A DNA stretch of 64,000 nt from Myxococcales bacterium. GTDB taxonomy: Bacteria; Myxococcota; Polyangia; Polyangiales; Polyangiaceae. The stretch is from the NCBI GenBank assembly GCA_003151595.1, contig PLXW01000052.1, positions 19,357 through 83,356 on the forward strand. Reading direction: 5' to 3'. Made by a program: the position numbers and the translations under genes. The notes beneath the pieces are model-generated. The model had not been told where the DNA came from, did not search any database, and saw only the letters and a list, made by a program, of their open reading frames with translations. Positions 7,581 to 64,000 of the stretch are shown one piece after another; position 1 is the first letter of the stretch, and the number at the start of each line of letters is the position of its first letter.

Positions 7581-7595
7581 GAGGAGGAGGACAGA

Positions 7596-10284: not shown

Positions 10285-10569
10285 ATGGTCAACGACGTCG
10301 TCAACACCACCCGCCCGCGCGTCCCTCTGCGGATCCTGCTGCGCGTCGCGCCGGTCGACTACCCCACCCTTGCAGCGCGCCTCGCGGCGTACAAGGTCGT
10401 GATCCTAGGGGACGCCAAGAGGGAGTACTGGCAGGCTCTCTGGAACCCAGGCGACCTCGAAGCGTTCGCGTGGGTCAGCACGGCGGACGTGAACCTCGCG
10501 ATCGACGCGCTCCGGAGTGTCCGTGAGGTCGTCGAGGCGCGGATCTCGATGCGCGACGTGAAGAAGTAG
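10285..10569 (+). CDS. Small cytoplasmic protein of unknown function
   Basis: 94 residues; ATG at 10285 chosen because GGTGAG lies seven bases upstream. A GTG at 10273 in the same frame is the alternative. It has no signal or membrane segment. The sequence is a compact alpha/beta pattern with a central RLAAYKVVILGDAKREYWQ and a C-terminal amphipathic helix with a basic end. I do not recognise a family. It is divergent from the spermidine-synthase-like gene and converges with the FHA-sigma54 regulator, whose stop lies three bases away. Confidence 0.65.
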   Translation: MVNDVVNTTRPRVPLRILLRVAPVDYPTLAARLAAYKVVILGDAKREYWQALWNPGDLEAFAWVSTADVNLAIDALRSVREVVEARISMRDVKK

Positions 10570-10572
10570 ATC

Positions 10573-12306: not shown

Positions 12307-12344
12307 TCTCCATGAGCCTCGCAACGACGCGAGCGCACGTCAAA

Positions 12345-12884: not shown

Positions 12885-12953
12885 GAGCGCCCCCTCGAGT
12901 CATCGCGAGGTTGCAGGGGCGACGCGCGCGTGGCTGCACGAACTGTTCAATCG

Positions 12954-12968
12954 CAACGCTTCGCGTTG
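12954..12968. terminator. Short hairpin, possible terminator of the upstream kinase gene
   Basis: Perfect six-base inverted repeat CAACGC-TTC-GCGTTG in the gap between the kinase-sensor gene and the lipoprotein gene. It has no T-run, so it is at best a weak or factor-dependent stop. Confidence 0.25.
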
Positions 12969-13053
12969 TACAAACGGTTCGAACAATCGGTGCAAGCGGA
13001 GGTGAGAGGCTGGCGTTGTGCGCCCTACCCCGTCAGCCTTCATGGCCAGCGCT

Positions 13054-15606
<2,553 letters not shown>

Positions 15607-15754
15607 GGCGGGCGCATGGAAGATATCTGGTCCGGGCGCGCGCCCACGCCGAGATCGACGAGGGCCACGCGCAGATCGCCAGCGTTGGTCGAAACAGTGC
15701 CCGAGAAGAGCCGATTCGAACGTAGGCAAGACGCGCCGCCGCACGGCTCCCCCG

Positions 15755-18668: not shown

Positions 18669-19425
18669 CTACGACGACGCGCGTGCGCGGTTCGACCGCC
18701 TTGGCAGCCCGAGCGCCACGAACAGCAAACCGACGAGCGCCGCGGCTCCTCCCGTCCCTCCGCGCGCGCCGCCGGTTCGTTCGACGGAGCAGCCTCCATC
18801 GTCCGACCCGGAGCTCGATCCGCTCGACCCCGCGTCCGTGTCGCCCGCGTCGTCGCCCGACAGAGGCGGAAGCGTGGCGTCCGCGACACCGCTGTCGGCT
18901 CCCGGAGTCACGCCGCCGGAGTCGACCGTCGCGTCGACGTCGCTGCCGCCGTCGTCGGTGCCGCCGCCGGTGTCGACGCTCGCGTCCACGCCGCCCCCCG
19001 CGTCGATGCCGCCCCCTGCGTCGACGCCGGCCTCGCTCCCCGCGTCGCCTGCGCCGTCAGGCAACGACAAGCTCACGTCGGTCGCTTCGTACGTGAGCAC
19101 GCGACCGGCGGGTCCGGTGCTCGACGCGAACGTTCCGCTGCTCGATCCGAACGGGAGGAGCTTGAACGTGTCGCTCGGCGAAGGGGGGAACCCGTTCACC
19201 ACGGTGACGTTCACCGCGCCGCCCAGCCGGCCACGCCGCTCACCGCGAGCTGATCGAACTGCGTGCCGGCCGTCACGCCGCCGATCTCGATCGCGAGCGT
19301 GCCCGCCGACGTCTGCGTGTAATCGCCGGTGATCGTGAGCGTGCCGGGCGACGCGCCGGGGCTCATCTGGCCGCCGCTCGTGACGTTGCCGACGACTGTG
19401 CCGAACCCGCCGAGCGTCCCCCCCT
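18669..19425 (-). pseudogene. C-terminal remnant of a surface protein with a MYXO-CTERM-like anchor, frameshifted and truncated
   Basis: Minus-strand frame from about 19425 to 19228 reads passenger-type beta repeats (GGQMSPGASPGTLTITGDY, then LAVSGV). It meets a stop, and the same pattern resumes one base out of frame from 19214 (NVTVVNGFPPSPSDTF). A long Asp/Gly-rich spacer and a C-terminal anchor follow: GCSVERTGG, a hydrophobic helix and a basic end RRSNRARASS, the MYXO-CTERM layout. Inserting one base near 19221-19230 would join LAVSGVAG-LGGAVNVTVVNGF. Upstream the frame is closed by TAG at a seven-G run (19418-19424) and no start is present, so the N-terminal part has been lost or replaced by the neighbouring lipoprotein gene. 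Confidence 0.6.
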
Positions 19426-26086: not shown

Positions 26087-29000
26087 TCAGCGTGACGAGC
26101 GGCGACGGCGCCGCGCGACGACGATCGATCCGATCGCGACGAACGCGAGGCCCGTGGGCGCCTCGGGGAGCGAAGACGATCCCACCGTCGAGCAGCCGCA
26201 CCCGCTCGACGCGCCCGTCCCACCGTTGCCGCCGCCGTCGCTCGGGTTCGCAGAGCCGTCTTCCAACGTGCCCCCGCCACTCGAGCTGCCGCTGCTGCTT
26301 CCGCCACTCGAGCTGCCGTTGCCGCCGGAGTCGTCGCCCGTCGCCGCAGCGTCGTCGTCACCGCTGACGCTCGAATCGTCGCCGCTGACGCTCGAGTCGT
26401 CGCCCGCGCTGCCGTCGCCTGTGCCGCCGCTACTGCTACCAGAAGCATCGCCCGAGGCTGCGTCGTGCGTGGAACCGGAGTCGCCCCCACTGCTGCTTCC
26501 TCCGGCGTCGGTCGCCGTGCCACCGTCGAGCGGACCGACTGTCACGGTGGTCGTCGTGTAAGCGCCGTCGGCGTCCATCCCGATGACGTCCGTCGTTCCG
26601 ACGAGCGAGCCGCCGGTGAACAACCCCGTCGATTCGTCGATCGTGGAGCAGACGTCCGTCTGTGCGGCGCACGTGGTGTCCGAACCCGTGAACCATTTCA
26701 TCGGCATGATGCCGCCCGTGGCCGAGAACTGCTTCGTCGCGCCGTTCGCGACGTGCGGATTCAACGGCGAGATGGCCAGCGTGACCGGCGTGAACGAGAC
26801 GGTCACCTTGGACGATTCCGACGGGAAGTAGTGCCCGTCGCCGCCGTACATCGCGTACACGTCCACGGACTGATGCCCCGGCCTCACGAGGCCCGGCGGA
26901 ATCGTCACGTTGATCGTGGCGGCGCCCGCGACCGTCGTGCCGACGAGCGCGCTCGTCCCGAGCGTCCACGAGCCCCAGTTGATATCCGGGTTGCCGCTCG
27001 CGTCGTACGACTGGAAGGCGAAGGTGACGATGCCGCCGGACAGACTGTTGGCGCTGGTCACGGTGGGGGCGACCGTCGCCGTCAGCGCGACGCTCACCCC
27101 TTCGTCGACCGCGGCGTTCGGAACCGCGACGAGCGTGGTCGTCGTCGGCGTGAGCGAGTTCATCGCCGTGAGGAGGTTGTAGACGTCGAGCGATCCGAGG
27201 CCGACAGCGCAGTCGTAACCCGTCGTCGCGGCGTAGCCGTACACATTCCCCGATCCGCATCCCGGGTCGGCGGCGGCCGTGCAGCTGACTTCGTTGTTCC
27301 CGAGCGTGCCGTCGTGGAACGCGGCCGGCGTGGAGGTGTTGAGCGCGTAGAGGAGCGGGTTGATGTTGCCGAGTCGGCCCCCCGCCACTTGATCCATCAT
27401 CGCAACGACCCCTGCAAACGCGGGGGTCGCGAACGACGTGCCCCCGCCGCCGTGGAGAGCGGCGCTCGAGGCCGTACCCGTCCCGGCGCAATCGGTCCCA
27501 GCCGCGTTGGTCGTGCACATCATCAAGTCCGCAATTTGCGCGCTGGTGACGCCGGCCGCCGTGAAGGACACGTCTGGTACTTGCCGCATGTTCGCGGCGA
27601 CGACGCCTGCAACCGGCAACGTACCGACCGAGGTGCACGTGGGGATTCCGCTTTGGTACGACGGTCGGCTGAAGAAGACGCTGATGCCTCCGCCGCCGGC
27701 CGCTACGCTGGGCGTCGTCCCGGTTCCGGTGTGCGCCTCGTTCCAAACGTGCTCTTTGGCGGCGACGTAGCCCGTGAAGTACCCGTCGGAGCCGGTGGTG
27801 AACGTATTCTTGGCGAACTGCGTTCCGCCGACGGCCGTGACACCTGGATAGGCGGCGGGCGTATTGACGTAGAGACCGCCGAGGCCGTCGTTGATGCACG
27901 ACGTGGCGCCGGAGTCACCGGAGGCAGCGAGATAGGTGATTCCTAAGAGGTTCGCGGCTGACCCATAGACGTCGACGATGTTTTGATCGCCGGCTGTGAG
28001 GCCGGCACCGTTGGGCGGAGCGGGAAGATAATAACCGTCGCACCCTCCCCAACTCTCGCTGAGGATGGCGCCGAGGTTGTTGTCGATGATGTAGTAGGTC
28101 GCATCGTCGACGTTGCCGTCGTCCGCGCCCGTGTAGACGTAGTTGATCGTGGCCCCTTTGCCGACGCCGCCGGTCCACTCGACGTCGAGCACCGCTTCGA
28201 ACCCCGCACTGTTGCTCCCCTCCTGCGAGACGCCAGTGTCGGGGACGAGGGTCATCGTCACCGTGGACGCCGGCAGCCCGAACTTCGATCGCCAGGAGTT
28301 GATGTCGGTCTGCGCGATCTGCGCGATTCCGACGACGGCGATGGTCACGCCCGCCCCCGTGATGGGGGTGCCGCCGATGCCCGGGGAATACGCCTTGGTG
28401 ACGTCGTAGACGTTGGCCCAGTCGGGGGGCGCGAAGCCGGTGAGGGTGCCGCTCGTATAGTCGGGGGAGACCTCGCTCCTCGTGTTCATGACGTGCGGAT
28501 GGAAGTCGTGCGTGTTCGTCACGTCGAGCACGATGTCCGCGAGCTCCGCGGGGACCTGCGGCGACGCCGACATGGCGTAGTGCATCTTGCCGGCGACCTC
28601 GTACTTCCGCATGGGCGCACGGAACGCGCTCTGCACGTTGGCGACGGTCCCCGAGAACGTGACGCGCGACCCCAGGCGCGACGTCGTGTGCAGCTCCAGC
28701 CCTTGCGACGCGAGCCACGTGTTCGTCCGCTCGATGTCGGCGGGGTTGGCGCCGAAGCGCGCCGCATACTGCTCGGGCGTGAGCCACTTGCGGTAGCTCG
28801 GCGACGCGGGATCGAGCTGCGCTTTCTTCAGCGCCTCGCGGTCCGCCTGCTGTGCCGGCGAGAGCTTGAACACGACGGACAGGTTCGACAGCCGCTTGGT
28901 CGGCTCCAGCGGCCCGCGATCGAGCTCCGGCCGCGCCCCGGCGAACACGCCGCGCGCAAGCTTCACGTACCCGTTCACCGCAGCCGCGCGCTTCGGCGCC

Positions 29001-29110
29001 GGCGCGGTTCCCGTCGTCCCGTCCGCGCCTCGCGACCCGCACGCGCTCAACGCGATGCCAGCCGGCACGACCACCAACGCCGCAATCAGTCCGAAACGCA
29101 CTGCTCTCAT
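26087..29110 (-). CDS. Sedolisin-family (S53) serine-carboxyl protease with MYXO-CTERM-like anchor
   Basis: 1007 residues from the ATG at 29110, with GAGGAG seven bases upstream. Signal/lipobox LSAC (Cys24); activation prodomain about 65-205 (KLSPAQQADREAL, YRKWLTPEQYAARFG). The S53 catalytic domain (about 225-640) has Glu305 and Asp309 (FEAVLDVEW), Asp399 (AASGDSG) and Ser559 (GGTSFATP), the full catalytic set. Two Ig-like beta regions follow (about 660-860), then an Asp/Gly/Ser-rich spacer and a C-terminal GCGC-hydrophobic-Arg tail of MYXO-CTERM type. The protease should be secreted and held at, or released from, the surface by the sorting system for that tag. Prodomain cleavage is the usual activation step in this family. 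Confidence 0.93.
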   Translation of the reverse strand: MRAVRFGLIAALVVVPAGIALSACGSRGADGTTGTAPAPKRAAAVNGYVKLARGVFAGARPELDRGPLEPTKRLSNLSVVFKLSPAQQADREALKKAQLDPASPSYRKWLTPEQYAARFGANPADIERTNTWLASQGLELHTTSRLGSRVTFSGTVANVQSAFRAPMRKYEVAGKMHYAMSASPQVPAELADIVLDVTNTHDFHPHVMNTRSEVSPDYTSGTLTGFAPPDWANVYDVTKAYSPGIGGTPITGAGVTIAVVGIAQIAQTDINSWRSKFGLPASTVTMTLVPDTGVSQEGSNSAGFEAVLDVEWTGGVGKGATINYVYTGADDGNVDDATYYIIDNNLGAILSESWGGCDGYYLPAPPNGAGLTAGDQNIVDVYGSAANLLGITYLAASGDSGATSCINDGLGGLYVNTPAAYPGVTAVGGTQFAKNTFTTGSDGYFTGYVAAKEHVWNEAHTGTGTTPSVAAGGGGISVFFSRPSYQSGIPTCTSVGTLPVAGVVAANMRQVPDVSFTAAGVTSAQIADLMMCTTNAAGTDCAGTGTASSAALHGGGGTSFATPAFAGVVAMMDQVAGGRLGNINPLLYALNTSTPAAFHDGTLGNNEVSCTAAADPGCGSGNVYGYAATTGYDCAVGLGSLDVYNLLTAMNSLTPTTTTLVAVPNAAVDEGVSVALTATVAPTVTSANSLSGGIVTFAFQSYDASGNPDINWGSWTLGTSALVGTTVAGAATINVTIPPGLVRPGHQSVDVYAMYGGDGHYFPSESSKVTVSFTPVTLAISPLNPHVANGATKQFSATGGIMPMKWFTGSDTTCAAQTDVCSTIDESTGLFTGGSLVGTTDVIGMDADGAYTTTTVTVGPLDGGTATDAGGSSSGGDSGSTHDAASGDASGSSSGGTGDGSAGDDSSVSGDDSSVSGDDDAAATGDDSGGNGSSSGGSSSGSSSGGGTLEDGSANPSDGGGNGGTGASSGCGCSTVGSSSLPEAPTGLAFVAIGSIVVARRRRRSSR

Positions 29111-51231: not shown

Positions 51232-52527
51232 TCAGTGCGCGACCGCGACGGGAGCGACCGGCGGCGCGTCCGCGACGACGAGCTCGCGCGACGCATCGAT
51301 GAACCACCACGGCGCCGTGCCGGCGACGGCGACCACGGCCATCACGACGATCGGCACGTCGTAGCTCCCCGAGACCTTGGCGATGTACCCGAACACGACC
51401 GCCGAGATCGCGCCGCCGAGCTGCCCCGCGGTGTTCATCGCGGCGGCCACTGTGCCGGCGTGGCTGCGGCCGACGTCGATGCAGACCGCGAAGCCGTTGG
51501 CCTGGAAGAAGCCCCACAGCGCGAAGGCGACAGACAGGATCGCGATCACGGCGACCTTGTCGTGCGTCACGGCCAGGGCTGCGTAGGCGATCCCGGCGGC
51601 GCCGAGGCCGACGCCCGCGGCCACGCGCCGCCCGCGACCGAGACCGAAGCGCGTGACGAGCGCGTCGCTGGTGGCGCCGCCCCCCGCGTTGCCGAGCATC
51701 CCGGCGATCCACGCGACCGCGACCCACCGCAGCTCCCCCTCGCCGAAGGCGCGCGCCTTCACGAGGTACGTCGGCATCCAGAAGACCGAGAAGTAGCCGC
51801 AGTAGACGGCCGCGAACCACGACGCCATCAGGCTCCACATCGTCCCGCTGCGCAGCGCGACTCTCCACGGGAGCCCGTGCGCGGGTGGCGGCGGAGCGCC
51901 GGCGGTCTCTTCGAGCTCCACGGCGCGCACGCCGGCCTTCTGGGCGGGGGTGTCGCGGAACCACGCGTACCACGCGATCGCCCACGCGACGCCGAGCACC
52001 GCGAACACGAAGAACGACGCGCGCCATCCGAAGCGCTGTTGAATCGGGACGACGATCAGTGGCGACAGCGCGCCCCCCACCTGCGTCGCGGCGCCGAACG
52101 CGCCCATCGCGGTCGCGCGCTTGCGGAGCGGGAACCACCGCGCGATCGCGATCGACGCGTTCGGCCACGCGCCCGCCTCGCCCGCGCCAAAGAGGAAGCG
52201 TGTGACGAGCAGCGACGGGAGCCCCATCGCCGCGCCGGTGAGCGCGGTGAACGCGGACCACCACACGACGATGCGCGTGAGCACGCGCCGCGGGCCGGCG
52301 CGATCGCCGAGGTGGCCGCTCGGGATCTCGAAGGCGGCGTAGGCGATCGAGAAGGCGACGCTGATCCACCCGAGGTGCTCGGGGGCGATGCGCAGGTCCT
52401 CCTGGATGCGCGGCAGCGCGACGGAGATGCAGACGCGGTCGATGTAGAGGACGACGCCGAGGGCGCAGAGCAGCGCGAGGACGAGGTGGCGGTGCCTCAC
52501 CGGCGAGGGGGGGCTCGGGGGAGTCAC
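51232..52527 (-). CDS. Major facilitator superfamily transporter, ACS-like
   Basis: 431 residues from a GTG at 52527, twelve hydrophobic segments in two halves. The first loop has GHLGDRAGPRRVL, the MFS motif between helices 2 and 3. The start LYIDRVCISVALP is typical of the anion:cation symporter family (glucarate, hexuronate and related organic acids). The central cytoplasmic loop (about 200-225) is Ala/Pro-rich. The substrate is probably a small organic anion, but this is a family-level inference. No catabolic gene is adjacent. Confidence 0.88.
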   Translation of the reverse strand: MTPPSPPSPVRHRHLVLALLCALGVVLYIDRVCISVALPRIQEDLRIAPEHLGWISVAFSIAYAAFEIPSGHLGDRAGPRRVLTRIVVWWSAFTALTGAAMGLPSLLVTRFLFGAGEAGAWPNASIAIARWFPLRKRATAMGAFGAATQVGGALSPLIVVPIQQRFGWRASFFVFAVLGVAWAIAWYAWFRDTPAQKAGVRAVELEETAGAPPPPAHGLPWRVALRSGTMWSLMASWFAAVYCGYFSVFWMPTYLVKARAFGEGELRWVAVAWIAGMLGNAGGGATSDALVTRFGLGRGRRVAAGVGLGAAGIAYAALAVTHDKVAVIAILSVAFALWGFFQANGFAVCIDVGRSHAGTVAAAMNTAGQLGGAISAVVFGYIAKVSGSYDVPIVVMAVVAVAGTAPWWFIDASRELVVADAPPVAPVAVAH

Positions 52528-53133: not shown

Positions 53134-54840
53134 CTATCGCCCGTTCCCCGACTCGCTCGACGATGCCAGCGGCGGAGGGGAGCGAGGAAGGCGCATGGTG
53201 AACGTCGTTCGTCCTTCCGCGGAGCGCGCAACGAGAGTGCCGCGATGCGCACGCGTGATTTCGCTCGCGATGTAGAGCCCCAGCCCGAGGTTGCCGGCCT
53301 TGGAATGTTCGCTCTGTCTGGCGCGGCGGAACGGCTCGAAGATGAATGGGAGCACGTCGGCCGGGATCGGGTCGCCCTCATTACTGATCTCCACGACGAC
53401 TTCGGACCCATCGCCATAGGCGTGAAGAGCGACGCCCGTGCCTACCCGTGCGTGCTCGGCGGCATTCCCGGCGATGTTGGAGATCACCTCCGCCAGGCGG
53501 TCGGCGTCCCAGCGCCCCATCATGTCCCCATGCGTGGTGCATTGCACGGGCACCGAAGCACCAAGCGTGAGCTCCTCGGTTGCGTTCCGGCACACCTCGC
53601 CGAGGTCGGTCGGGCGCAGCTCGAACAGCATGCCTCCACCCAAGCGCGCGCGCGTGAAGTCGAGGATCTGCATGATCATGCGATCCATTCGGCGGGCCCC
53701 GGAGAGGACGCGCATCACTACGCGCTTGTCCTCTTCGGTGAGGTTGCCGTGCGCGACGAGGATGCCGGCGCCCATCGTCACGGCGCTGAGCGGGTTTCGC
53801 AAATCGTGACCGAGGATACCCAAGAGCCGCTCGCGAAGCTCCGCCGTCGCGAGCTCGGCAGTGAGCAACCGGTCGGCTTCCACCCGCGACGCCTCGACAT
53901 CCCGACGCGCGTCCACTTTCTCCGTCACGTCGTACGCATGGATGAACACGCCCTCGATGCTCCCGTCTGCACCGCGGAGTGGTGCGTAGACGAAGTCGAA
54001 GTAAGTGTCTTGAAGAACACCGTCCCGATTGCGATCAAGCCGCGCCAGAACCTCTTTCCCATGATAGGCGACGCCGGTCTTCAGAACGCCGCGAAGCAGA
54101 TCATCGAAGCCCTGGCCGTGAAGCTCGGGGAGTGCCGCCATTAGAGGTTGCCCCAGGATGGCGTCGCTCTTTCCCCACATATCGAGGATCATCGGATTGA
54201 CGAGCTCGATCCTAAGATCTGGACCGCGAAGAACGCAGGCGGCCGTCGGTGATTCGTCGAACATCATCTGCAATCGTTTTCGCTCGGCCTCCGCCTGACC
54301 TCGAATGGCCGCCTCCGCGCGCTTTTGATCGTCGACGTCCATGTTGGTGCCGAACCAACGGACGATCTGTCCATCGGCGTCGCGCAACGGCACCGCGCGA
54401 GAGAGAAACCATCGGAACTGCCCGTCGTGACGTCGTAGGCGAAACTCGTCCGCCCAGGGCTCACCGCTCGCCAGTGCGTGCTTCCACCCCGCAACAACGC
54501 GCGGTAGGTCGTCCGGGTCGTGGACGGACTTCCACTTCCATCCCTCCTGTTCGTCGAGGGTCGTGCCGGTGTAATCGTACCAGCGTCGATTGTACCAGGG
54601 GATGTGCCCGTCGGGATTGGCGTACCAGGCGAGAATAGGCAGCGTGTCAGCGAATGTTCGGAGCTGCTCTTCGCTCGCCTTGAGCTCTCTCGTAGTCGCT
54701 TCGGCCGCATCCGTCGCCTCGTGCGCGCGGAGCGACGAGAGAACGAGCTCCCCGTTCACCTCACGCACGCGTTGCGCGCGGGCCAGCTCGCGCGCCGTAG
54801 AATCAGCGTCGCGCACGTGACCGTTGTTTTCGGGCGTCAT
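53134..54840 (-). CDS. PAS-domain sensor histidine kinase paired with a KaiC-like ATPase
   Basis: 568 residues. Order: a short helical N-terminus, PAS domain 1 with PAC segment (about 55-180; IPWYNRRWYDYTG, WFGTNMDVDDQ), PAS domain 2 (about 190-310), HisKA with the phospho-acceptor His in GILGHDLRNPLS (about residue 350), then the HATPase domain with N-box (NIAGNAAEHA) and G-boxes (NLGLGLYIA). No membrane helix, so it is a cytoplasmic sensor. It has no receiver domain and no response regulator is adjacent. Its start overlaps the end of the KaiC-like gene by 38 bases, which ties the two functionally. Confidence 0.9.
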   Translation of the reverse strand: MTPENNGHVRDADSTARELARAQRVREVNGELVLSSLRAHEATDAAEATTRELKASEEQLRTFADTLPILAWYANPDGHIPWYNRRWYDYTGTTLDEQEGWKWKSVHDPDDLPRVVAGWKHALASGEPWADEFRLRRHDGQFRWFLSRAVPLRDADGQIVRWFGTNMDVDDQKRAEAAIRGQAEAERKRLQMMFDESPTAACVLRGPDLRIELVNPMILDMWGKSDAILGQPLMAALPELHGQGFDDLLRGVLKTGVAYHGKEVLARLDRNRDGVLQDTYFDFVYAPLRGADGSIEGVFIHAYDVTEKVDARRDVEASRVEADRLLTAELATAELRERLLGILGHDLRNPLSAVTMGAGILVAHGNLTEEDKRVVMRVLSGARRMDRMIMQILDFTRARLGGGMLFELRPTDLGEVCRNATEELTLGASVPVQCTTHGDMMGRWDADRLAEVISNIAGNAAEHARVGTGVALHAYGDGSEVVVEISNEGDPIPADVLPFIFEPFRRARQSEHSKAGNLGLGLYIASEITRAHRGTLVARSAEGRTTFTMRLPRSPPPLASSSESGNGR

Positions 54841-56314
54841 TGCGCTTTCCCGCCTTTCTTACCGCCAGCTTGCTTGGAGCGCCGCTCAAGATCCCTTCAT
54901 AGCCCTTAATCGCGCCGCTCGTGACCACCAAGCCGTCCTGCGTTATGTCGTACTCTCTCAGGTCCTTGCTGTGGGGGCTCGAGCGGACCTTGACGACCGA
55001 GATCGCGCGTTTGAGCTGCCCGTCGATCTCGACGTAGCGTTGCATCAAAATGGCGTCCGTCAGGAAGGCGACGCCGTGCGGGCTGAACTGGAGCTCGTTG
55101 TACGAGTCCTCGAGCTCCACGGTCGCCATCACCGTCACGCCACCCCCCGTGAGCGCCCCGATCATGCGGTACGTCGACTCACGAAAATCCTCGCGGAACG
55201 TCGGCGCAAGCGCGAGCTCGAGGCCGGAGAGCGAGTCAATGACCGCGCGTTTGGCCCCGATGCGAATCACCGCTTCGCGGAGCGCCACGAGCGTCTCGTC
55301 GATCGAGAGGTCGAGCGGCCGCAGATACACGATCTCGAGCTTCTTGCTCTTCACCAGCTTCTTGAACTCGGCGCCGTGCGGCGTCGTCGCCAAGTAGTCC
55401 TCGGGGCGCTTCTCGAAAACGGCGAGAACCCCCGTCTCGCCGCGCTGCGCACCTTCGACGAGGAACTGATTGGAGAGCACGGTCTTGCCCGATCCCGACG
55501 GGCCGGCGATGAGCACCGAATAGCCGGCTGGAACCCCCCCGCCCATCATCTCGTCGATCGCAGGCACGCCGATCGAGAGACGATGAGCGAGCGCGGCCGG
55601 AGCGTTTTCGGGTTTGAGGAGTCGCGGGAAGACGCGGACGCCCGCGTCATCGATTCGCGCCGTGTGGAGGCCCGGGATCTGCGCCTGACCGCGCACCTTC
55701 ATCACCTGAAGCTTGCGCACGACGGAATTGCGATCGACGGCTTGGGAAAGCCAGACGATCCCATCCGCCACGGTGAAGACATCGCTGTCTTGCTCGGCCG
55801 CTGTGTACTCCCCGAGCAGGAACGTCGTGGCCTCGCAGCTGGTCAGATGCAGTGCGAGCTGCTGAACGAAATCTTGCATCTGGATCCCGTCCCGATCCCT
55901 GAGCGCCCGCTGGACCATCGACCGAAACGAGTCGACGAACACGAAGCTGGGGCTCGCTTTTTCCACCTCTCTCTCGATGCGCGCGAGGACTGCACCGAGC
56001 CCCCCCTGCTTCAGCTCGTCGCCGAGGTGGACGAAGCGGATCGACTCCTTGAGCTTCGCGGGATCGAAGAACGAATACTGCTGCTGGTAGCGCAGCATCT
56101 TGATCGGCGGCTCGCCGATGATCGAGAAATAGATCGCCTTGTGCTCGGGCGATGCGTTCGCGAACATGATCTGGTGCCCCAGCGTCGTCTTTCCGCATCC
56201 CGGGGCGCCGGCGATCAAGTTGAACGAGAACTCTGGAATGCCGCCGCCGAGCGCCTCGTCCAGGCCAGGCACCCCCGACGGCAACTTGCGGATCGAAACC
56301 CTGTCGGTGCTCAT
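54803..56314 (-). CDS. Two-domain KaiC-like ATPase
   Basis: 503 residues from the ATG at 56314, which overlaps the preceding stop (TGATG). Two RecA-type ATPase domains: the first with Walker A GAPGCGKTT (about 35), the second with GPSGSGKTV (about 270). Each has the KaiC-type opening GVPGLDEALGGGIPE / GVPAIDEMMGGGVPA. The C-terminal signature LTDAI…YVEIDGQ.KRAISVVKVR.S.H matches KaiC. At the position of the cyanobacterial clock phosphosites Ser431/Thr432, however, a by-eye alignment gives Ala/Phe. It is therefore probably a KaiC-family switch ATPase and not a phosphorylating clock protein. It ends in a basic tail. No kaiA or kaiB is nearby. Confidence 0.9.
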   Translation of the reverse strand: MSTDRVSIRKLPSGVPGLDEALGGGIPEFSFNLIAGAPGCGKTTLGHQIMFANASPEHKAIYFSIIGEPPIKMLRYQQQYSFFDPAKLKESIRFVHLGDELKQGGLGAVLARIEREVEKASPSFVFVDSFRSMVQRALRDRDGIQMQDFVQQLALHLTSCEATTFLLGEYTAAEQDSDVFTVADGIVWLSQAVDRNSVVRKLQVMKVRGQAQIPGLHTARIDDAGVRVFPRLLKPENAPAALAHRLSIGVPAIDEMMGGGVPAGYSVLIAGPSGSGKTVLSNQFLVEGAQRGETGVLAVFEKRPEDYLATTPHGAEFKKLVKSKKLEIVYLRPLDLSIDETLVALREAVIRIGAKRAVIDSLSGLELALAPTFREDFRESTYRMIGALTGGGVTVMATVELEDSYNELQFSPHGVAFLTDAILMQRYVEIDGQLKRAISVVKVRSSPHSKDLREYDITQDGLVVTSGAIKGYEGILSGAPSKLAVRKAGKRNDARKQRSRARR

Positions 56315-56754
56315 CACTCCGTCTCCTCTTTGGGGGCGCTCGACACGCGGAACACGGGCCACGAATCGCGTAACACCTCGGACGTCAGCCGCTCTCCGAT
56401 CAGCGTTCCGAGCAGGGCAAGCAGCGTGGCGTAGAGCGCCAACGAGGCTTCGGTGACGGCGTCGGGGTTCTCGCCGCGCAGACAGGCCTCGAGCTGCTCA
56501 GGGAGGTTTGGGGCTCGCTCGACGGCCAGGTCGACTTTTCCGAGACAGGGAAAATCGGGCGCACTCAACTTCACGCTGCGCGCAAACAGCGCGCGGGCAG
56601 CGGACGGGCCGACGAGCGTCGAGAGATGCGCGACGATCGTCTCGCAGACGCGCCGCGCGGCCGTGGCGCGTTCCTCGGCGCTCTCGGCCTCTTGGGCCTC
56701 ACGCGCAAGCAGCCGCCGAGCGGCATTCAGTTGCGCGGTGGTCGGCGCTTTCAT
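56314..56754 (-). CDS. Helical protein of unknown function in the KaiC operon
   Basis: 146 residues from the ATG at 56754, whose first bases overlap the stop of the upstream gene (ATGA). It has no signal or membrane segment. The sequence is strongly helical: an N-terminal amphipathic helix (RRLLAREAQEAESAEERATAA), then a compact domain with SAARALFARSVKLSAPDFP and a C-terminal Leu-rich helix. Its own stop overlaps the KaiC-like start (TGATG). Overlaps on both sides argue for tight stoichiometry with KaiC. No family recognised. Confidence 0.75.
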   Translation of the reverse strand: MKAPTTAQLNAARRLLAREAQEAESAEERATAARRVCETIVAHLSTLVGPSAARALFARSVKLSAPDFPCLGKVDLAVERAPNLPEQLEACLRGENPDAVTEASLALYATLLALLGTLIGERLTSEVLRDSWPVFRVSSAPKEETE

Positions 56755-57107
56755 TGGGGATAGGGAGCACCAGGGTAAGAACAGGCGGCACGAGTGTCTA
56801 TCCTGAGCATGCCGAGAGCAGTCTGCCGACGGCACGAGCTCATCCGCATCCTGTCTTCAGCGTCGCCGTCGGCGCGCGGGCTCACGTAGAACACACTGCC
56901 GAACTGCACGTGAGACCAGACGTCGCTTTGCTTCTCGAGCGTCACTGCTGGGCACTCGTCGTCCTCGTACCGCTCGGGCATCTCCTCGCAGTACCTCACG
57001 ACGTGCGGCTCGGCAGCGTCGAGAATCGCCGACGTCGCGTCGAGCGCGTGCTGGACGGCGCGGCGAGTATCGTCGGGCCGCGGATCGTCGGCGTAGCTCT
57101 CGAGCAC
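56751..57107 (-). CDS. Protein of unknown function, first gene of the KaiC operon
   Basis: 118 residues from a GTG at 57107, with GGAG eight bases upstream. Acidic alpha/beta protein (ESYADDPRPDDTRRAV, RYCEEMPERYEDDECP) without signal or membrane segment. It stops in an ATGA overlap with the next gene, the main reason to accept it. The preceding acyl-ligase gene stops only 48 bases upstream, so transcription may run through from the peptide locus. No family recognised. Confidence 0.65.
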   Translation of the reverse strand: MLESYADDPRPDDTRRAVQHALDATSAILDAAEPHVVRYCEEMPERYEDDECPAVTLEKQSDVWSHVQFGSVFYVSPRADGDAEDRMRMSSCRRQTALGMLRIDTRAACSYPGAPYPQ

Positions 57108-57155
57108 GAATTTGTCTCCATACTGACAATGCGAGCCCGGGGACGCTGGCGCAAT

Positions 57156-60100
57156 TCACCCAACTGGGGGCGGCCCGGGGAACGTCGTGGCGGCCTCCAT
57201 CTGCTCCAGGTAGAGCGCCCGATTCCGCGATCGTGAAAGCTTTCCCGACGTGCTCTTCAGCAGCGCGCGCTCCCGGAGCAGTCGCACGTCGTACGCGGCG
57301 CAGCCGAACACGGACGAGACGTGCGCCCGGATCCTCTCCTTCAGATCGGCGCTCTGGTTCGGCTCGACCTCGTCGTGGACTTCGGCGAGCAAGACGAGCC
57401 GCTCCGTCCCGAGCGTCTCGTCCTCGATCCCGAAGACCACGACACGGCCCGGCTTCATACCGGGCATCGCACCGACGCTCTCCTCTACATCGTGTGGATG
57501 GACGTTGTGCCCTGCGACGATGACGAGGTCCTTCTTGCGCCCCGTGACATAGAGCTCGCGGTCGAGAATGACGCCTACGTCACCCGTGGAATACCACCCG
57601 TCCCGGAGCGCGGCGGCCGTCGCGCCGGGATCGTCGAAGTATCCGCCCATGAGCGAATCCCCCCGCACGCGGATCTCCCCCGCGTGGCCGTGGGTCAGCG
57701 TTCGACCTTGGGAATCCACGATCGCGATCGACGTCCCTTCGATGACCTCTCCCGACCCCGTGAGCACGACCGGCGATCCCTTCGAACCGCTGGCGCGCTT
57801 CGCGATACCCTTGGTGCGCCACAGTTGCGCGTCCACGGGCGTGGAAACGAGGCCCCGGCCGGGCGGAACTTGGGTCACCGCGAACGTGTTCTCCGCCATC
57901 GCGAACGAAGCCGAGAGGGCCGATCGCCGGAGCCCGACGCTCGCGAACCGTCGATGAAAGGCGTCGGCCGCGCGCTGGGTGACCGGCTCCGAGCAGTTGA
58001 CGACCGCGCGCCAGGACGACAGGTCGAGCCCCTCCAACGACTCCTCCGAGATCCTCTGCGCGGAGTACATGAACGCAAAATTCGGCATCCACGAAAGTGT
58101 GCCGCGCTCACGCGTCACCTCTCGCAGCAGGAGCTCGGGGCACGCGAGCCAATCGAACGGTGACATCATCACGAGAGGGAGGTCGGCGAGCAGCGGAAGA
58201 AGCAGACACGCGATGAGGCCCATGTCGTGGTAGAGCGGCGCCCAGCTCACGACGACGTCGCGCGAATCGCATCGCAACGCGCGCGCGAGGTGTCGCAGCT
58301 GCGCTGTCGTCGCTCGCTCGTCGAGTAGGACCCCTTTCTGGAGGCCGGTCGTCCCGGACGAATGCTGGAGGAGGAGCGGCCGGTTCGCTCGCCGGCCCGG
58401 GGCGGCGGCGCTCCGCGCTGTCGGCGTCGGCTGGTGAGAAGACACCTGTATGTCAGGCGCGCGCGAGGCCGCGATGCACGCGCGCACCAGCGGCTCGTGA
58501 GGTGGAGCGCATAAGACGAGACGCGTGCGGCTCCTCGCGGCGACCTCGCCGAACCACGAGACGAAGGCCGACTCCGAGAGCTTCACGCTCGGCGCCGCGA
58601 CGATCGAAGGGACGAAATCGTAGAGAAGCGCGCCGAGGAACGCCGAGACGAGCGGCAAGCCCTGAGGCAGCATCAGCGTGACGATGTCCCCCGGTTCGGC
58701 ACCCAGGCTCGCGAAGAGATCGGCGTAGCCGCGCGCGCGCTCGAGGAGCGTGCTCCATCCCGCATACTCGTAGTCGTTCGGCTTCGTCGAACGCACCACT
58801 TTGACCTGCCACGGGTGACGCGCCGCCGCAGCGTGGTGCTCGATCAAGTCGGTGACACGGTCATACGTGCCTAGCGGATCGACGTGCGCCCGTCGCCGCG
58901 CCTCCGAGGCGACTCTGCGATCGCCGCTCTCGGCGATCGCGGAGATCGCAGAGGGCCGCGCGCGGCGTGCCCGGAGCGCCGCATCGAGGAGCGTCGAGCG
59001 GCGGTAGATCGTCGCGACGGTCAGGTCCTCGTCTACGAACGCGACGCCGAGCTTCGCTTCGATCTCGTGAACGAGATCGAGCGCCGTGAGCGAGTCGAGA
59101 CCGAGCGTCCGCAAATCATGGGTGTGAGGAATGTCCGTCTCGCCGAGCCTCAGATGGCGCCGGATCGCCGCGTCGACCGTCGCCTCGATCTCCGCATCGG
59201 AGACCGGCTCGGCCGGGGATATCGCGGGAGGACTCGCAGGAGGACTCGCGGTCATCGGCGCGAGGTCACGAAGCTCGGAAGCCAGCTCCGGGGCGGTGAG
59301 GAGATAGCGTTTGATCGACCACCTATCCCCGCGGAAGACGCGCATCCCAGCCCGCAACGGGCGCCGCCCGAGGCCGATCCACACGCACTCTTCTGCGCGA
59401 ACCTTCAGCTTCGCCAGGAGGTCGGTCAGCTCGGTGGGACTGTGGACGATGCCCTCGAGGTGTTCTGCGCTCACGAAGCTCGTCGAGCTCCCCGGCACGT
59501 TCCACTTCTCTCGCAGAGCAGCCTCCGGCAAAGATGACGCGCACACCAGCTTCACGCCGCGCGCGCGCACGGCGAGGAGCGCTTCGTTGACCCCGCAGTA
59601 GAATTGATAGTCAGGACGGCCCAGGCTGCGTTGCAGCGACTCGTGGGCCGACGGCTTGTCCCGGATTCTCCCGGGCCACACCAGCGTGTCCGGATCGAAG
59701 ACGACGACGCGAGCCTTCGGCTCGTCGTGGCGCCTGCGGAGAAAGTCGAAGAGGCCGGCGGCGATTTGATCGGAGGCGCCGGCTTGCGGGTCGCCTGCCG
59801 GGAACGTCTGTCGTTCAGAGGAGGGATCAGCCCACTGGGTCAGTTCGATCCAGAAGCGCGGGTTGTACGCGCAATGATGTCCGGAGCCTGTGTACTCGTC
59901 GTCCAGGACGACGCGGCCGCCGCGCGCGACGGTGAGACGCGACTCGTCCAGGAGGAACGTGTCCGGAGCGCGCAGCGCTTCGGCGAGGCGCTGATTCAGC
60001 TCCGCGTACAGTCGCGCGCGGAGATGGTGCGCGGCGGCGCCCTCGGGAATGGGAGAGAGTGACGGTGCGCCGACTGACATCACGGCGAGCGGCGCCGTCG

Positions 60101-61184
60101 TATGGCGTCGCACCGCGGTCACGAGCTCGTCCATGACGGCGATGACGCGCGGGACCTGCCCCTCTGCCGCGTTCCAGTCGCCTCTCGCGGCGGCGTCGTG
60201 CAGCGGCGCCGTGCAATCGGCCAGGGACAGAAAGACGGCGGCCCACGAGCTGCGCGCAAGCGCGGCCGAGGGGGTCGCCTCGCCGAAGAGATCGAGGTGA
60301 ACGTGATGGCGCTGGGCGAGGCGCTGGAGCGCTCCACCCACGAAACTGATCTGACACTGCCCGATGACGGCGACCCGACCGAAGGCCGCCATGCGATTCA
60401 CGTCGGTCCAGTCGTACGGAGTCGCAGAGTCAGTCCACTGGTGATGAGGCTCGCTCCACTGCCGCGCCGACGGTCCATCGGCACGAACATCGAGCCGCGC
60501 CGCCAGCGCATCGAACCCGCGGCGTTCCGCGGCTCGGCTGGGCCACAGCAGCCGGCGGAGGACGAGGAAGCGGCACGCGGACAGGAGCTCCTCTTCCGAC
60601 CGAATGCCGAGGCGTTTCCCCGCGGCGGCGATGCTGCACGGCGTTCGAAAGGCGCGCGCAAGCCGCCAGAGTCGTTCGCGGAGATGAACGCGCGGCCCGA
60701 GTGGGTGCAGGGCGATCGTCTCGCCCGGACACACTCCCAAGGACACGACGTGGGGTGATAAGTGCAGGCGCGAGCGCGGCGTCAGAGCAAAGGCTGCGCG
60801 CTCCACGTCCGACAGAGTCTCGTCGGGCGCGCACCAGCGATCGATCGCGTTTGCGGCGAGCGGCATGCTCGGAGCGACGGGAGGCAGCTCGGTACGGCGA
60901 CTCGCGAACGCGCTGCGAATTCGCCGGGGCGCATCGAACGTTTCGGGTACCAGCAGCTGCGCCTGGACGAGGTGCCCGAGGACGAACGCTACTCCTCGCT
61001 CGCTCTCTTCGAAGTGCTCTGCGACCTCGCTCGCTCGCCGCGGCCGGGCGTGCCACGCGAGGATCTCGAGGACCCGCCGGTCGCACACGAGGCGGCTGTG
61101 ACCGAGGACGTGGCTCGCGATGCTGAACCCGGCTCGCAGCGGCGCGACGACGAACGGTCCCCCGCGAACGAGTCGATCCTGCAC
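57156..61184 (-). CDS. Multidomain enzyme: winged-helix / FkbH-HAD-like / acyl carrier / acyl-AMP ligase
   Basis: 1342 residues from a GTG at 61184, with CGGAG close upstream. N-terminal ~230 residues form two winged-helix-like units (about 30-80 and 165-215), the kind used to bind RiPP leader peptides. About 265-455 is the SGNH-like N-part and about 490-640 the HAD-like part of FkbH proteins, with the nucleophile pair Asp497/Asp499 in FDPDTLVW. An acyl carrier domain follows (about 660-740) with phosphopantetheine Ser698 in GLDSLTALD. An adenylating ligase (about 770-1330) has SSGTTGLQKG (942-951), WYSTGD and GRKKDLVIVAG, most like fatty-acyl-AMP ligases. It should activate an acid, load it on the carrier and perhaps pass it to the peptide encoded just upstream. 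Confidence 0.85.
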   Translation of the reverse strand: MQDRLVRGGPFVVAPLRAGFSIASHVLGHSRLVCDRRVLEILAWHARPRRASEVAEHFEESERGVAFVLGHLVQAQLLVPETFDAPRRIRSAFASRRTELPPVAPSMPLAANAIDRWCAPDETLSDVERAAFALTPRSRLHLSPHVVSLGVCPGETIALHPLGPRVHLRERLWRLARAFRTPCSIAAAGKRLGIRSEEELLSACRFLVLRRLLWPSRAAERRGFDALAARLDVRADGPSARQWSEPHHQWTDSATPYDWTDVNRMAAFGRVAVIGQCQISFVGGALQRLAQRHHVHLDLFGEATPSAALARSSWAAVFLSLADCTAPLHDAAARGDWNAAEGQVPRVIAVMDELVTAVRRHTTAPLAVMSVGAPSLSPIPEGAAAHHLRARLYAELNQRLAEALRAPDTFLLDESRLTVARGGRVVLDDEYTGSGHHCAYNPRFWIELTQWADPSSERQTFPAGDPQAGASDQIAAGLFDFLRRRHDEPKARVVVFDPDTLVWPGRIRDKPSAHESLQRSLGRPDYQFYCGVNEALLAVRARGVKLVCASSLPEAALREKWNVPGSSTSFVSAEHLEGIVHSPTELTDLLAKLKVRAEECVWIGLGRRPLRAGMRVFRGDRWSIKRYLLTAPELASELRDLAPMTASPPASPPAISPAEPVSDAEIEATVDAAIRRHLRLGETDIPHTHDLRTLGLDSLTALDLVHEIEAKLGVAFVDEDLTVATIYRRSTLLDAALRARRARPSAISAIAESGDRRVASEARRRAHVDPLGTYDRVTDLIEHHAAAARHPWQVKVVRSTKPNDYEYAGWSTLLERARGYADLFASLGAEPGDIVTLMLPQGLPLVSAFLGALLYDFVPSIVAAPSVKLSESAFVSWFGEVAARSRTRLVLCAPPHEPLVRACIAASRAPDIQVSSHQPTPTARSAAAPGRRANRPLLLQHSSGTTGLQKGVLLDERATTAQLRHLARALRCDSRDVVVSWAPLYHDMGLIACLLLPLLADLPLVMMSPFDWLACPELLLREVTRERGTLSWMPNFAFMYSAQRISEESLEGLDLSSWRAVVNCSEPVTQRAADAFHRRFASVGLRRSALSASFAMAENTFAVTQVPPGRGLVSTPVDAQLWRTKGIAKRASGSKGSPVVLTGSGEVIEGTSIAIVDSQGRTLTHGHAGEIRVRGDSLMGGYFDDPGATAAALRDGWYSTGDVGVILDRELYVTGRKKDLVIVAGHNVHPHDVEESVGAMPGMKPGRVVVFGIEDETLGTERLVLLAEVHDEVEPNQSADLKERIRAHVSSVFGCAAYDVRLLRERALLKSTSGKLSRSRNRALYLEQMEAATTFPGPPPVG

Positions 61185-61260
61185 GGTGGCTCCGGAGCTT
61201 CGCGCCGAATGCTCTGCGCATCAAGCCGCGACGCGACTTGATGCGCCGAGCACGGGCCGG

Positions 61261-61428
61261 TCAGGTGCGAAGGAACGACGAGGGCGCGAACGACGCGGGC
61301 GCGAAGGACCGGCCCGCCTTGAGGCCGCTGCGGATCGAGAGCGCCTCCGCCCCCGTGAGCTCGGTGTCCTCCTGCGCGAGCTTGATCTTGCCGGTGTTCG
61401 ACTTCGTGATCTGCTTCTTCGTCTTCAT
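61261..61428 (-). CDS. Small peptide with leader and S-F-A-P repeat, RiPP-precursor-like
   Basis: 55 residues, ATG at 61428, with GGAG nine bases upstream, stop TGA at 61261. The N-terminal ~38 residues are Lys/Gln/Thr-rich, then acidic, a typical leader (MKTKKQITKS… LAQEDTELTGAEAL). They end near a Gly (RSGLKAG), after which comes SFAPASFAPSSFLRT, two near-identical FAP-x-S-F units and a basic end. No membrane segment. It lies 76 bases upstream of the winged-helix/FkbH/carrier/ligase gene on the same strand. Leader plus short repetitive core directly before a modifying enzyme is the usual layout of ribosomally made modified peptides. The peptide class is not one I recognise. Confidence 0.7.
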   Translation of the reverse strand: MKTKKQITKSNTGKIKLAQEDTELTGAEALSIRSGLKAGRSFAPASFAPSSFLRT

Positions 61429-61453
61429 GGTCGTGATCTCCAGTGAGTGATTG

Positions 61454-61531
61454 CGCGTGTTGCGTGATCTGCAAGCTAGTCACACGCGCGAAAGATGCTT
61501 GTCATCCCAACGGACGACTAAGCAACACGCG
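61454..61531. promoter_or_regulatory. Divergent promoter region with a ten-base inverted repeat
   Basis: CGCGTGTTGC at 61454-61463 and its reverse complement GCAACACGCG at 61522-61531, centres 68 bases apart, lie in the 213-base gap between the divergent peptide gene and the metallo-beta-lactamase-fold gene. They are candidate operator half-sites or loop-forming sites for a regulator of both units. No clear -35/-10 could be fixed. Confidence 0.4.
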
Positions 61532-61641
61532 GGCCGCGCGTGATCCGCGCTCGATACCGCGACTCTTGTGCAAGCGATGCACTCCGAAGCGCAGCGCGTG
61601 CTCTGGTTGTGGCCGACGTGCACTCGGTCTACTTTCACGCC

Positions 61642-63135
61642 GTGAGCTCGTTCGACGTCACGTTCCTCGGGCACCAGGGGTGGCTCTTCTCGTCCGGCGA
61701 ATCGCGGCTGATGGTCGACCCGCTCTTGACGCCCGCGTTCGGGCATCTGGGCGCGCTCGGCGTGGTCTACCCGCCGCGCGTTTTTTCCTTCGAGGCTCTC
61801 CCGCCCGTCGACGCGTTGCTCATCACGCACGAGCACGAAGATCACCTCGACGTGCCTTCGCTCGCGCGGATCGATCGAAGAGTCCCCGTGCTCCTCTCGG
61901 CGCACTCCTCGCGCGCAGGGCACGCGCTGCTCAGCGAGATGGGGTTCAGCGTCCATCGCGTCCGCCCCGGCGACGTCGTGACGATCGGGGATCTCGATCT
62001 CCATCTCTTCGCGCCTGACGTGACCGACGCCGAGACGATCGACGAATGGGACGTCCTCCCATTCCTGGTACGGGACCGACGCGGACACGGCAGCTTCTTC
62101 ACGACAGTCGACGTCGACCCCCATGAGCGGCTCGAGCAGGCCGTGCGCGCCATCATCCCGCGTCCCCCCGTCTGGTGTTACACGAACAACGTGAGCGATC
62201 TTTCGTTCGCCGGCGGCGGGAAGGTGCTCCGCACGCAGCCGATGGATGCCTCGGCCCTCGCCCGCGGGCTACTCGATCACTATGCGGGTCTCTGCCTGCG
62301 CCGCGCGGAACCGGAGGCGATCCTCATGTGCGGAGGAGGGTTCGCGTTCGCGGGTGACCGCGCCTGGATGAATCGGCACGTCTTCCGCGCCGACTCGACC
62401 GCCGTCTGCGCGTCCTTCTCCGCGCTCATGCCGCGACGGACGTTCCGCGCGCTCCTCCCGGGCGAGACGGTGATCCAGCGTGACGGGGCGCTGGCTGCGA
62501 TTCACCCCGACTCTCCGTTTCTCCGCAGCGCGCCGCGAGACGAGTGGCCGCCGCGGGACTACGTCGGGCCGGCGGAGCCCCTCCTGAGCTACTCCCCGGC
62601 CACCTCCGTCCGTGAGCTCGATCAGGGCGAGCTCGATCAGCTGGAGGTGGAGCTCGATGCGTTCGCCGCCCACCTCTGCTCGCGGCAGACCTTTCGCGCG
62701 CTTCTATCGCTCGACGCGTCGGAGCTCGAAGGGCGACGCCCGACGTTCTCGCTCGTCGCGCTCTGCGATGAGGAGGGCGGAGCGTACGTCTATGAGTACG
62801 ATCTCGCATCGTGCGCATTCGTCGCGGCGGAGAACGTGGACCCCGTCGCCGACTACGTAGGTGGGCTCGAGTGCTGGGCGAGCGATCTGCTCGCCGTCTT
62901 CCGCGGCGAGCTCGCCCCCTCGGCGATCTCGTTCGGCCGGTGCCGAAGCTGGAACGCCCTCCCCAAACGTTGCCCCATCGACTGGGGAGAGCTCTGGCTC
63001 TACTGCCACCCCCTCCGGCGTCCCGACCGGTTCCTTCACTTCTATCGACGGATGCTCGCCGGGATCGGCGCGCCGACGCCGTGCGTGCGTGCGTCGGGTG
63101 CGGCAAATCCGATCGTCGTCAATGCCGCCCGTTGA
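61642..63135 (+). CDS. Metallo-beta-lactamase-fold protein of unknown substrate
   Basis: 497 residues from a GTG at 61642, chosen because FDVTFLGHQG starts the fold; the frame is open further upstream without a ribosome site. The MBL-fold domain occupies about 1-200 with metal ligands in THEHEDHLD (His63, His65, Asp67, His68), a later FAPD and an FFTTVDVD segment. The C-terminal ~290 residues have no recognised domain (Cys-rich in places, CRSWNALPKRCPI). It shares the layout of UlaG-like or CMP-Neu5Ac-hydroxylase-type MBL proteins rather than beta-lactamases. Its position opposite the peptide gene suggests a hydrolase or oxygenase in the same pathway. Confidence 0.75.
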   Translation: MSSFDVTFLGHQGWLFSSGESRLMVDPLLTPAFGHLGALGVVYPPRVFSFEALPPVDALLITHEHEDHLDVPSLARIDRRVPVLLSAHSSRAGHALLSEMGFSVHRVRPGDVVTIGDLDLHLFAPDVTDAETIDEWDVLPFLVRDRRGHGSFFTTVDVDPHERLEQAVRAIIPRPPVWCYTNNVSDLSFAGGGKVLRTQPMDASALARGLLDHYAGLCLRRAEPEAILMCGGGFAFAGDRAWMNRHVFRADSTAVCASFSALMPRRTFRALLPGETVIQRDGALAAIHPDSPFLRSAPRDEWPPRDYVGPAEPLLSYSPATSVRELDQGELDQLEVELDAFAAHLCSRQTFRALLSLDASELEGRRPTFSLVALCDEEGGAYVYEYDLASCAFVAAENVDPVADYVGGLECWASDLLAVFRGELAPSAISFGRCRSWNALPKRCPIDWGELWLYCHPLRRPDRFLHFYRRMLAGIGAPTPCVRASGAANPIVVNAAR

Positions 63136-64000
63136 CTGCAAAGCTCCCGCGAGGCGCGGCCTCTATCCCGCGATCGAGCCGTACCGTACCGGCCGCATCG
63201 CCGTCTCCCCTCTCCACGACCTCTACTACGAGGAGTCGGGAAACCCGGACGGCAAGCCGGTCGTGTTCCTCCACGGCGGTCCGGGTGGCGGCACCGAACC
63301 GAAGCAGCGGCGCTTCTTCGACCCCGAGGCCTACCGGATCGTGCTCTTCGATCAGCGCGGGTGCGGCAAGAGCGTGCCGCATGCGTCGCTCGAAGAGAAC
63401 ACGACGTGGGATCTCGTCGGCGACATCGAGCGCTTGCGCGAGCGGCTCGGGATCGCGCGCTGGCAGGTCTTCGGCGGATCGTGGGGGAGCACGCTGGGAC
63501 TCGCGTACGCACAGACGCACCCCGACCGTGTGACCGAGCTCGTCCTGCGCGGGATCTGCCTGCTGCGAAAGCACGAGATCGACTGGTTCTACCAACGCGG
63601 CGCCGACGCGCTCTTCCCGGACGCTTGGGAGGAGTTCGTCGCGCCGATTCCGCCGGACGAGCGAGCGGATTTGCTCGGGGCCTACCACCTTCGCCTGACG
63701 AGCGACGACCCTCGAACGCGGCAAGAAGCGGCGCGCGCGTGGAGCGTGTGGGAGGGCAAGACGAGCTGCTTCACGCCCGACCCGGCGGTCATCGCGAAGA
63801 CGGCGAGCGACGAGTTCAGCCTCGCGGCGGCGCGCATCGAGTGCCACTACTTCCTCAACCGAGGCTTCCTGACCGGGGAGCGCGCGCTCCTCGCGGCGGC
63901 GAACGTGGCCAAGATCCGCCGCATCCGCGGCGTCATCGTTCAAGGGCGTTACGACGTGGTGTGTCCGATGGAGAACGCCTGGGCGCTCCACCGTGCGTGG
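63122..64000 (+). CDS. pip: Proline iminopeptidase, partial at the 3' end
   Basis: 293 residues visible; the gene continues past the window. The ATG at 63122 lies inside the preceding gene (14-base overlap), so translation is coupled. Alpha/beta-hydrolase with oxyanion motif HGGPGGG, DQRGCGKS, nucleophile in GGSWGS, and the near-complete S33 family pattern (PYRTGRIAVSPLHDLYYEESGNP). It should release N-terminal proline from peptides. Linked to the S-F-A-P peptide gene it might trim that product, but housekeeping enzymes of this type are common. Confidence 0.92.
   Translation, partial: MPPVDCKAPARRGLYPAIEPYRTGRIAVSPLHDLYYEESGNPDGKPVVFLHGGPGGGTEPKQRRFFDPEAYRIVLFDQRGCGKSVPHASLEENTTWDLVGDIERLRERLGIARWQVFGGSWGSTLGLAYAQTHPDRVTELVLRGICLLRKHEIDWFYQRGADALFPDAWEEFVAPIPPDERADLLGAYHLRLTSDDPRTRQEAARAWSVWEGKTSCFTPDPAVIAKTASDEFSLAAARIECHYFLNRGFLTGERALLAAANVAKIRRIRGVIVQGRYDVVCPMENAWALHRAW

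Follow-up and report, generated by a model that had tools for sequence, protein, structure and literature searches.

RiPP recognition elements (RREs) are carried by modifying enzymes of ribosomally synthesised and post-translationally modified peptide (RiPP) pathways, to which we take TigE, MccB, ThcOx, LynD/TruD and TglHI to belong. FkbH-like glyceryl transferases of polyketide pathways (TIGR01686) are built on a core of an SGNH-like and a HAD domain. Lipolanthines, goadvionins, lipoavitides, selidamides and nostolysamides receive an acyl group on a ribosomal peptide by means of a GNAT, for which the donor, outside the nostolysamides, is an acyl group on an acyl carrier protein (ACP). For nostolysamide lipidation, acyl-coenzyme A (acyl-CoA) is the donor (PMC13060382). 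Here we describe a 64,000-nt stretch of a Myxococcales bacterium genome (assembly GCA_003151595.1, contig PLXW01000052.1, positions 19,357 to 83,356; hereafter the window), in which a gene for a 55-aa peptide stands directly before the gene for a 1342-aa enzyme. With a confidence that lies just on the favourable side of even, this pair is read as a RiPP-type pathway in which a single fused enzyme acylates a ribosomal peptide.

Like the RRE-bearing RiPP enzymes, the window's enzyme combines an RRE-like fold with a modifying function, but its catalytic part consists of acyl activation and a carrier rather than a radical S-adenosylmethionine (SAM), ThiF, YcaO or oxidase domain. It shares the SGNH-like and HAD core of the FkbH-like glyceryl transferases, whereas it lacks their HAD catalytic residues and C-terminal half, has RRE-like units, an ACP and a fatty-acyl-AMP ligase (FAAL) fused to the core, and has in its SGNH-like domain a Cys and an HH pair that few or none of the aligned canonical FkbHs share. 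The proposed likeness to the GNAT-lipidated RiPPs is the acyl group on a ribosomal peptide; in contrast to those systems, a single chain joins the FAAL, the carrier and the RRE-like units to an SGNH-like candidate transferase, and the Pfam matches of the enzyme, of the genes beside it and of 20 scanned window genes include no GNAT.

The peptide gene and its spacing from the enzyme

The putative precursor gene (61261..61428, minus strand) encodes 55 residues, MKTKKQITKSNTGKIKLAQEDTELTGAEALSIRSGLKAGRSFAPASFAPSSFLRT, with a Lys-rich N-terminus and a Ser-rich tail, SFAPASFAPSSFLRT; the peptide has no Cys. A Shine-Dalgarno motif, GGAG, precedes the ATG start codon by 9 nt, the G+C content at third codon positions is 0.96, and in codon usage the gene scores best of the 255 open reading frames (ORFs) of 40-90 aa in the window. 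The tail repeats as SFAPA SFAPS SF, and its periodicity was matched by a fraction of 0.0001 of 20,000 shuffles, while the longest exact repeat (4 residues) taken alone was matched by 2.9% of shuffles. A relation to lanthipeptide leaders was considered for the peptide by eye and rejected, as NCBIfam gives no match at E <= 1. Second in codon score among the short ORFs is one of 51 codons (19214-19366, minus strand) that resembles a piece of a repeat-rich surface protein.

Exactly 76 nt (61185-61260) separate the small gene from the enzyme gene on the same strand, an arrangement of short precursor gene and adjacent modifying enzyme that is characteristic of a RiPP pathway. Within this gap lies a 14-bp stem-loop (61216..61246, minus strand), and the gap folds at -44 kcal/mol (z -4.0), a value that no shuffle out of 200 reached. 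A terminator-like site was looked for in the gap and none was found, and an Rfam search of 60900-61700 gave no match. Stem-loops between precursor and enzyme are familiar from RiPP operons.

Domain architecture of the enzyme

The enzyme gene (57156..61184, minus strand) encodes, in order, two RRE-like units, an SGNH-like domain, a degenerate HAD domain, an ACP and a FAAL. Only the AMP-binding and PP-binding parts exceed Pfam cut-offs; the winged-helix and SGNH plus HAD parts were recognised from structure models. The RRE-like units comprise residues ~5-80 (60945..61172) and ~138-213 (60546..60773), and in the AlphaFold2 (AF2) model each has a short extra strand in front, the first unit continuing with three strands and three helices in a block with a predicted local distance difference test (pLDDT) of 86-97. 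Among solved structures the best matches of both winged-helix units are RREs, TigE above all. By fold, the units thus resemble tandem RREs, and they would bind a leader.

The SGNH-hydrolase-like domain (residues ~266-487; 59724..60389), with Cys277 at the nucleophile position, D428/D429 and H436/H437, is followed by the HAD-like domain (residues ~488-637; 59274..59723). This order and fold are those of FkbH and BF1531, with a fold relation to BF1531 (3slr). The ACP domain (residues ~662-744; 58953..59201) scores 29.8 bits with PF00550 against a cut-off of 20.8, and the FAAL-like domain (residues ~785-1330; 57195..58832) matches PF00501. For the latter, NCBIfam FAAL models rank top yet stay under their cut-offs (best 324 against 600), and solved FAALs such as 3pbk, FadD32 and FadD23 match it. 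The domain is closer to FAALs than to CoA ligases, has the adenylation motifs and their Lys, and is placed with the FAALs. Both the carrier Ser698 and the ligase Lys1315 are invariant in the alignment of the enzyme family. A PADLOC run on four proteins gave no match.

An initial annotation, made from the sequence alone, had proposed a RiPP-like pathway from a 55-codon gene with a repetitive end lying 76 bases before an enzyme with winged-helix-like units, an acyl carrier and an acyl-AMP ligase. Each of these features is borne out by the analyses above, and a RiPP-type pair is still the best reading, given the RRE-like fold and the FkbH relatives at or near RiPP genes described below.

Active-site residues of the SGNH-like and HAD domains

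The residues of the core were compared between 18 members of the enzyme family and a canonical set of 30 of the 76 FkbH match rows, all within the 32 best scores, together with three further FkbH proteins, L088, L089 and L090. At the SGNH nucleophile position a Cys is found in 18/18 family rows, as is the D..HH motif. Among the canonical rows a Cys occupies that position in two of the 28 that are readable (L136 and L152; L148 is gapped and L156 not alignable) and HH occurs in 0/29 readable rows, whereas L088-L090 have both in 3/3.

The HAD motifs of the family have degenerated. The motif I nucleophile is Asp in 7, Asn in 1 and Glu in 10 of the 18 rows (Asp lost in 11/18), the DD pair is kept in none, its first Asp being present in 8/18, and the Lys is kept in three (P0009, P0011 and P0013) and lost in 15/18; in the 30 canonical FkbHs, by comparison, Asp is kept in 30, DD in 29 and Lys in 30. 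The window's own enzyme keeps the motif I Asp and has neither Lys nor DD, so that it lacks the set of HAD catalytic residues that marks an FkbH. Its core segment gives no match to TIGR01686 at E <= 10, unlike L088-L090, which do match, and the C-terminal half of FkbH is missing from the enzyme. Because HAD catalytic residues have been lost, the DD pair in all 18 aligned members and both Lys and DD in the window's protein, formation of glyceryl-ACP by the HAD domain is unlikely, and judging by its residues the domain is probably inactive.

In a tree, the family (18 rows; 100/100) and the canonical FkbHs (30 rows; 100/99) separate into groups of their own. L088, L089 and L090 fall outside the canonical group, the placement of L088 being weakly supported (83/34).

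FkbH relatives at or near RiPP genes

FkbH matches at E <= 1e-20 occur in 55 of the 317 genomes of the class. Three full FkbH proteins in these genomes strongly match the family core profile (E 5.8e-27, 4.3e-19 and 5.5e-18). These three are the FkbH proteins L088, L089 and L090, the nearest by profile in the genomes searched, and they have the Cys and HH of the family in their SGNH-like domains. They differ from the window's enzyme in keeping intact HAD motifs and the FkbH C-terminal half and in having no ACP-FAAL.

L090 (G578:C140:310000-329000, 8775-17410) lies inside a RiPP-type cluster. A class I lanthipeptide-type leader there is barely above its cut-off, and the cluster also has a LanC-like gene together with a pair each of arginase-like and of JmjC/cupin genes. 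The FkbH protein has, by eye, an RRE-like N-terminus, and both arginase-like genes are extended at the N-terminal end. For a RiPP-type cluster, the presence of an FkbH enzyme is itself unusual. RRE-JmjC fusions have been described whose bacterial relatives sit in RiPP-like contexts (PMC12710340). L088 (G530:C361, 3-6412), on a 6.7-kb contig that cuts the 5' end of its gene, is 2.8 kb from a gene for a TIGR03975 RiPP radical SAM C-methyltransferase. For L089 (G575:C1:1096000-1115000, 7019-10583) a place at or near RiPP genes is uncertain: it has an RRE-like N-terminus by eye and is convergent with a gene whose MBL-fold product carries a long N-terminal extension and is only distantly related to the MBL-fold protein of the window. 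No paper on RiPP-linked FkbH pathways such as these surfaced in the open-licence literature searched.

Distribution of the enzyme family

The enzyme family was met solely in the protein collection, with six close and 12 more distant relatives, and in none of the genomes searched; the two relatives with an organism name are from metagenome-assembled genomes (Archangiaceae and Nannocystaceae). Together with named MBL relatives and the gene content, these two point to Myxococcota as the probable origin of the DNA. Few candidates were scored per genome in the large searches, so misses are possible: the core protein was found in 0/183 genomes of the order, and the core profile gave weak matches in 4/377 genomes of the phylum (four or five candidates per genome), three strong and one weak in 4/317 genomes of the class (at most five candidates per genome), weak ones in 3/71 genomes of another class, and none in a set of two genomes. 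FkbH-like proteins of another class (L081, L083, L084 and L091) match the family core weakly. A contig scan of reference genomes with the core profile yielded no relative among 32 pattern matches, and with the full-length profile all of the best 80 of 589 matches in reference genomes begin at query residue 644 or later. Plasmid searches with the peptide and with the core gave no match. The RRE-SGNH part of the L090 protein was found in 0/377 phylum genomes, a result that shows little, as the sample excluded G530, G575 and G578.

Neighbouring genes

Divergent from the enzyme is a gene for an MBL-fold (UlaG-like) protein with an HxHxDH motif (ORF 61540-63135, plus strand; likely start 61609 or 61642), and overlapping it by 14 nt is a prolyl aminopeptidase gene (63122..64000, plus strand); the initial annotation had likewise seen a divergent MBL-fold gene and an overlapping proline iminopeptidase. 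The window ends within the aminopeptidase gene, which scores 422 bits with TIGR01249 (cut-off 260). For five of the six close enzyme relatives (P0003, P0004, P0005, P0006 and P0007), the contig is identical in base count to that of an MBL relative (P0125, P0126, P0127, P0124 and P0128, respectively) of 73-78% identity. The sixth, P0002, has no MBL relative on an equal-sized contig, although elsewhere an 81% relative (P0123) exists. For the 12 more distant relatives of the enzyme, no contig equals in size that of any MBL relative among the 120 of 157 MBL rows listed. Homologues of the MBL protein (36-49% identity) occur in 22/317 class genomes, none showing the enzyme, and when 13 of the 22 neighbourhoods, two of which (L116 and L121) resemble each other, were compared by BLAST with the window's enzyme, aminopeptidase, peptide, DUF6985 and major facilitator superfamily (MFS) proteins, none was found within four places of the MBL gene. 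Because linkage is seen in five of six close relatives and homologues occur elsewhere without the enzyme, the MBL gene is, judging by these comparisons, probably linked to the enzyme in this clade, yet was rejected as a pathway marker on its own; its earlier assignment to the pathway stands to that extent.

On the other side, 48 nt downstream of the enzyme, is a DUF6985 gene (56751..57107, minus strand) that is possibly in the same transcript as the enzyme and possibly shortened, its PF22481 match (47 bits) starting at profile position 30. Two further genes show no obvious link to the enzyme, one for an MFS transporter (51232-52527) and one of a peptidase family whose product carries a pro-kumamolisin activation domain (26087-29110). 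At 53134-56362 (minus strand) a KaiC-type double ATPase gene and a PAS histidine kinase gene overlap by 38 nt and are probably a signalling pair, and 10573-42826 holds five protein kinase domain genes and an FHA-sigma54 activator gene, a gene content typical for myxobacteria.

Discussion

The proposed acylation draws on elements visible in fold or sequence: domains of the leader-binding type, intact ligase and carrier residues, a degenerate HAD domain and an invariant Cys and HH. The RRE-like domains would hold the leader of the 55-aa peptide while the FAAL converts an acid and ATP to acyl-AMP and loads the fused carrier. From the carrier the acyl group would pass, probably by way of Cys277, to the C-terminal S-F-A-P region of the leader-held peptide. 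Because the peptide has no Cys, the acceptor would be a Ser/Thr hydroxyl or an amine. The HAD domain may be a scaffold left from an FkbH-like ancestor whose acyl group came from 1,3-bisphosphoglycerate, a source that the ligase and carrier would have replaced. For the MBL-fold enzyme, a role as accessory hydrolase is possible.

Several observations weigh against acylation of a ribosomal peptide. No PqqD/RRE model in Pfam or NCBIfam matches residues 1-250 at E <= 10, so that no RRE is assigned by profile, and the weak sequence matches of this part are to other winged-helix families, the best being PF08100 (O-methyltransferase dimerisation; 19.3 bits, cut-off 25.6). The unrelated winged-helix proteins FAM91A1 and GATOR1 score level with NisB or MccB by structure, and Foldseek is known for many false RREs (PMC12710340). 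A search of limited sensitivity in the protein collection, which contains six close relatives of the enzyme, gave no relative of the 55-aa peptide, and the scan of 20 larger genes of the window brought up no RiPP-specific one. In L088 the FkbH gene is parted from the radical SAM gene by four ORFs on alternating strands, L089 is without a proven precursor, and L083 and L084 have the SGNH Cys without the HH. What the SGNH-like domain, Cys277 and the acyl group do in this scheme is inferred.

Given these observations, it is possible that the enzyme is a free-standing acyl-lipid or tailoring enzyme, in which the FAAL-ACP and an SGNH acyltransferase act on a lipid or on a protein partner bound by the winged helices, and that the small gene is unrelated or regulatory. 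The lack of a small-gene relative and of any other RiPP-specific gene, and the weak leaning of the N-terminal profiles to other winged-helix families, agree with this, as does the fact that FAAL-ACP-acyltransferase fusions (PF01553) are common in the same protein search. However, this is unlikely for the following reasons: first, the winged-helix units match RREs best by structure. Second, the codon usage, Shine-Dalgarno motif and spacing of the small gene speak against it. Third, RiPP genes are found at or near two of the FkbH relatives.

About as unlikely is a RiPP pathway in which the enzyme acts otherwise than by acylating a residue of the peptide, for instance by activation of the peptide's carboxylate or by ester or macrocycle formation via a carrier-bound group. 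The RREs, the precursor and the adenylate-forming domain would fit equally well, and the Ser-rich tail of the peptide is in its favour, but the ligase is closest to the fatty-acyl-AMP ligases and a fused carrier is typical for an acyl group supplied from outside. The version of the initial annotation, a glyceryl-type group put on Ser, taken here as FkbH-type transfer from 1,3-bisphosphoglycerate by way of the carrier, is highly improbable: the fold relation to BF1531, the sequence relation to FkbH, the motif I Asp of the window's protein and the Lys of three distant members speak for it, whereas the losses of DD (18/18), Lys (15/18) and Asp (11/18), the lack of a TIGR01686 match to the core and the missing FkbH C-terminal half do not support it.

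Acylation of the ribosomal peptide by the fused enzyme is therefore preferred among these readings. A published description of this arrangement of peptide and enzyme was not found in the open-licence literature searched. This raises the possibility, which we put forward tentatively and at somewhat less than even confidence, that the locus represents a new RiPP class, in which an enzyme that unites tandem RREs, an acyl-AMP ligase and carrier of its own and an FkbH-derived SGNH-like Cys transferase with an inactivated HAD domain acylates a leader-bound peptide without CoA and without a GNAT. The class would then form a branch of a larger set of RiPP-linked FkbH enzymes in Myxococcota that has so far gone undescribed. 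If so, carrier-protein acyl activation, of the kind found in nonribosomal peptide and polyketide synthases, and the modification of a ribosomal peptide would be united in one polypeptide, which would offer a programmable route to acylated peptides, and the FkbH fold would have a second use, in acyl transfer to peptides. A profile of the Cys plus D..HH in an FkbH-like core may serve as a probe for RiPP clusters missed by domain-based tools.

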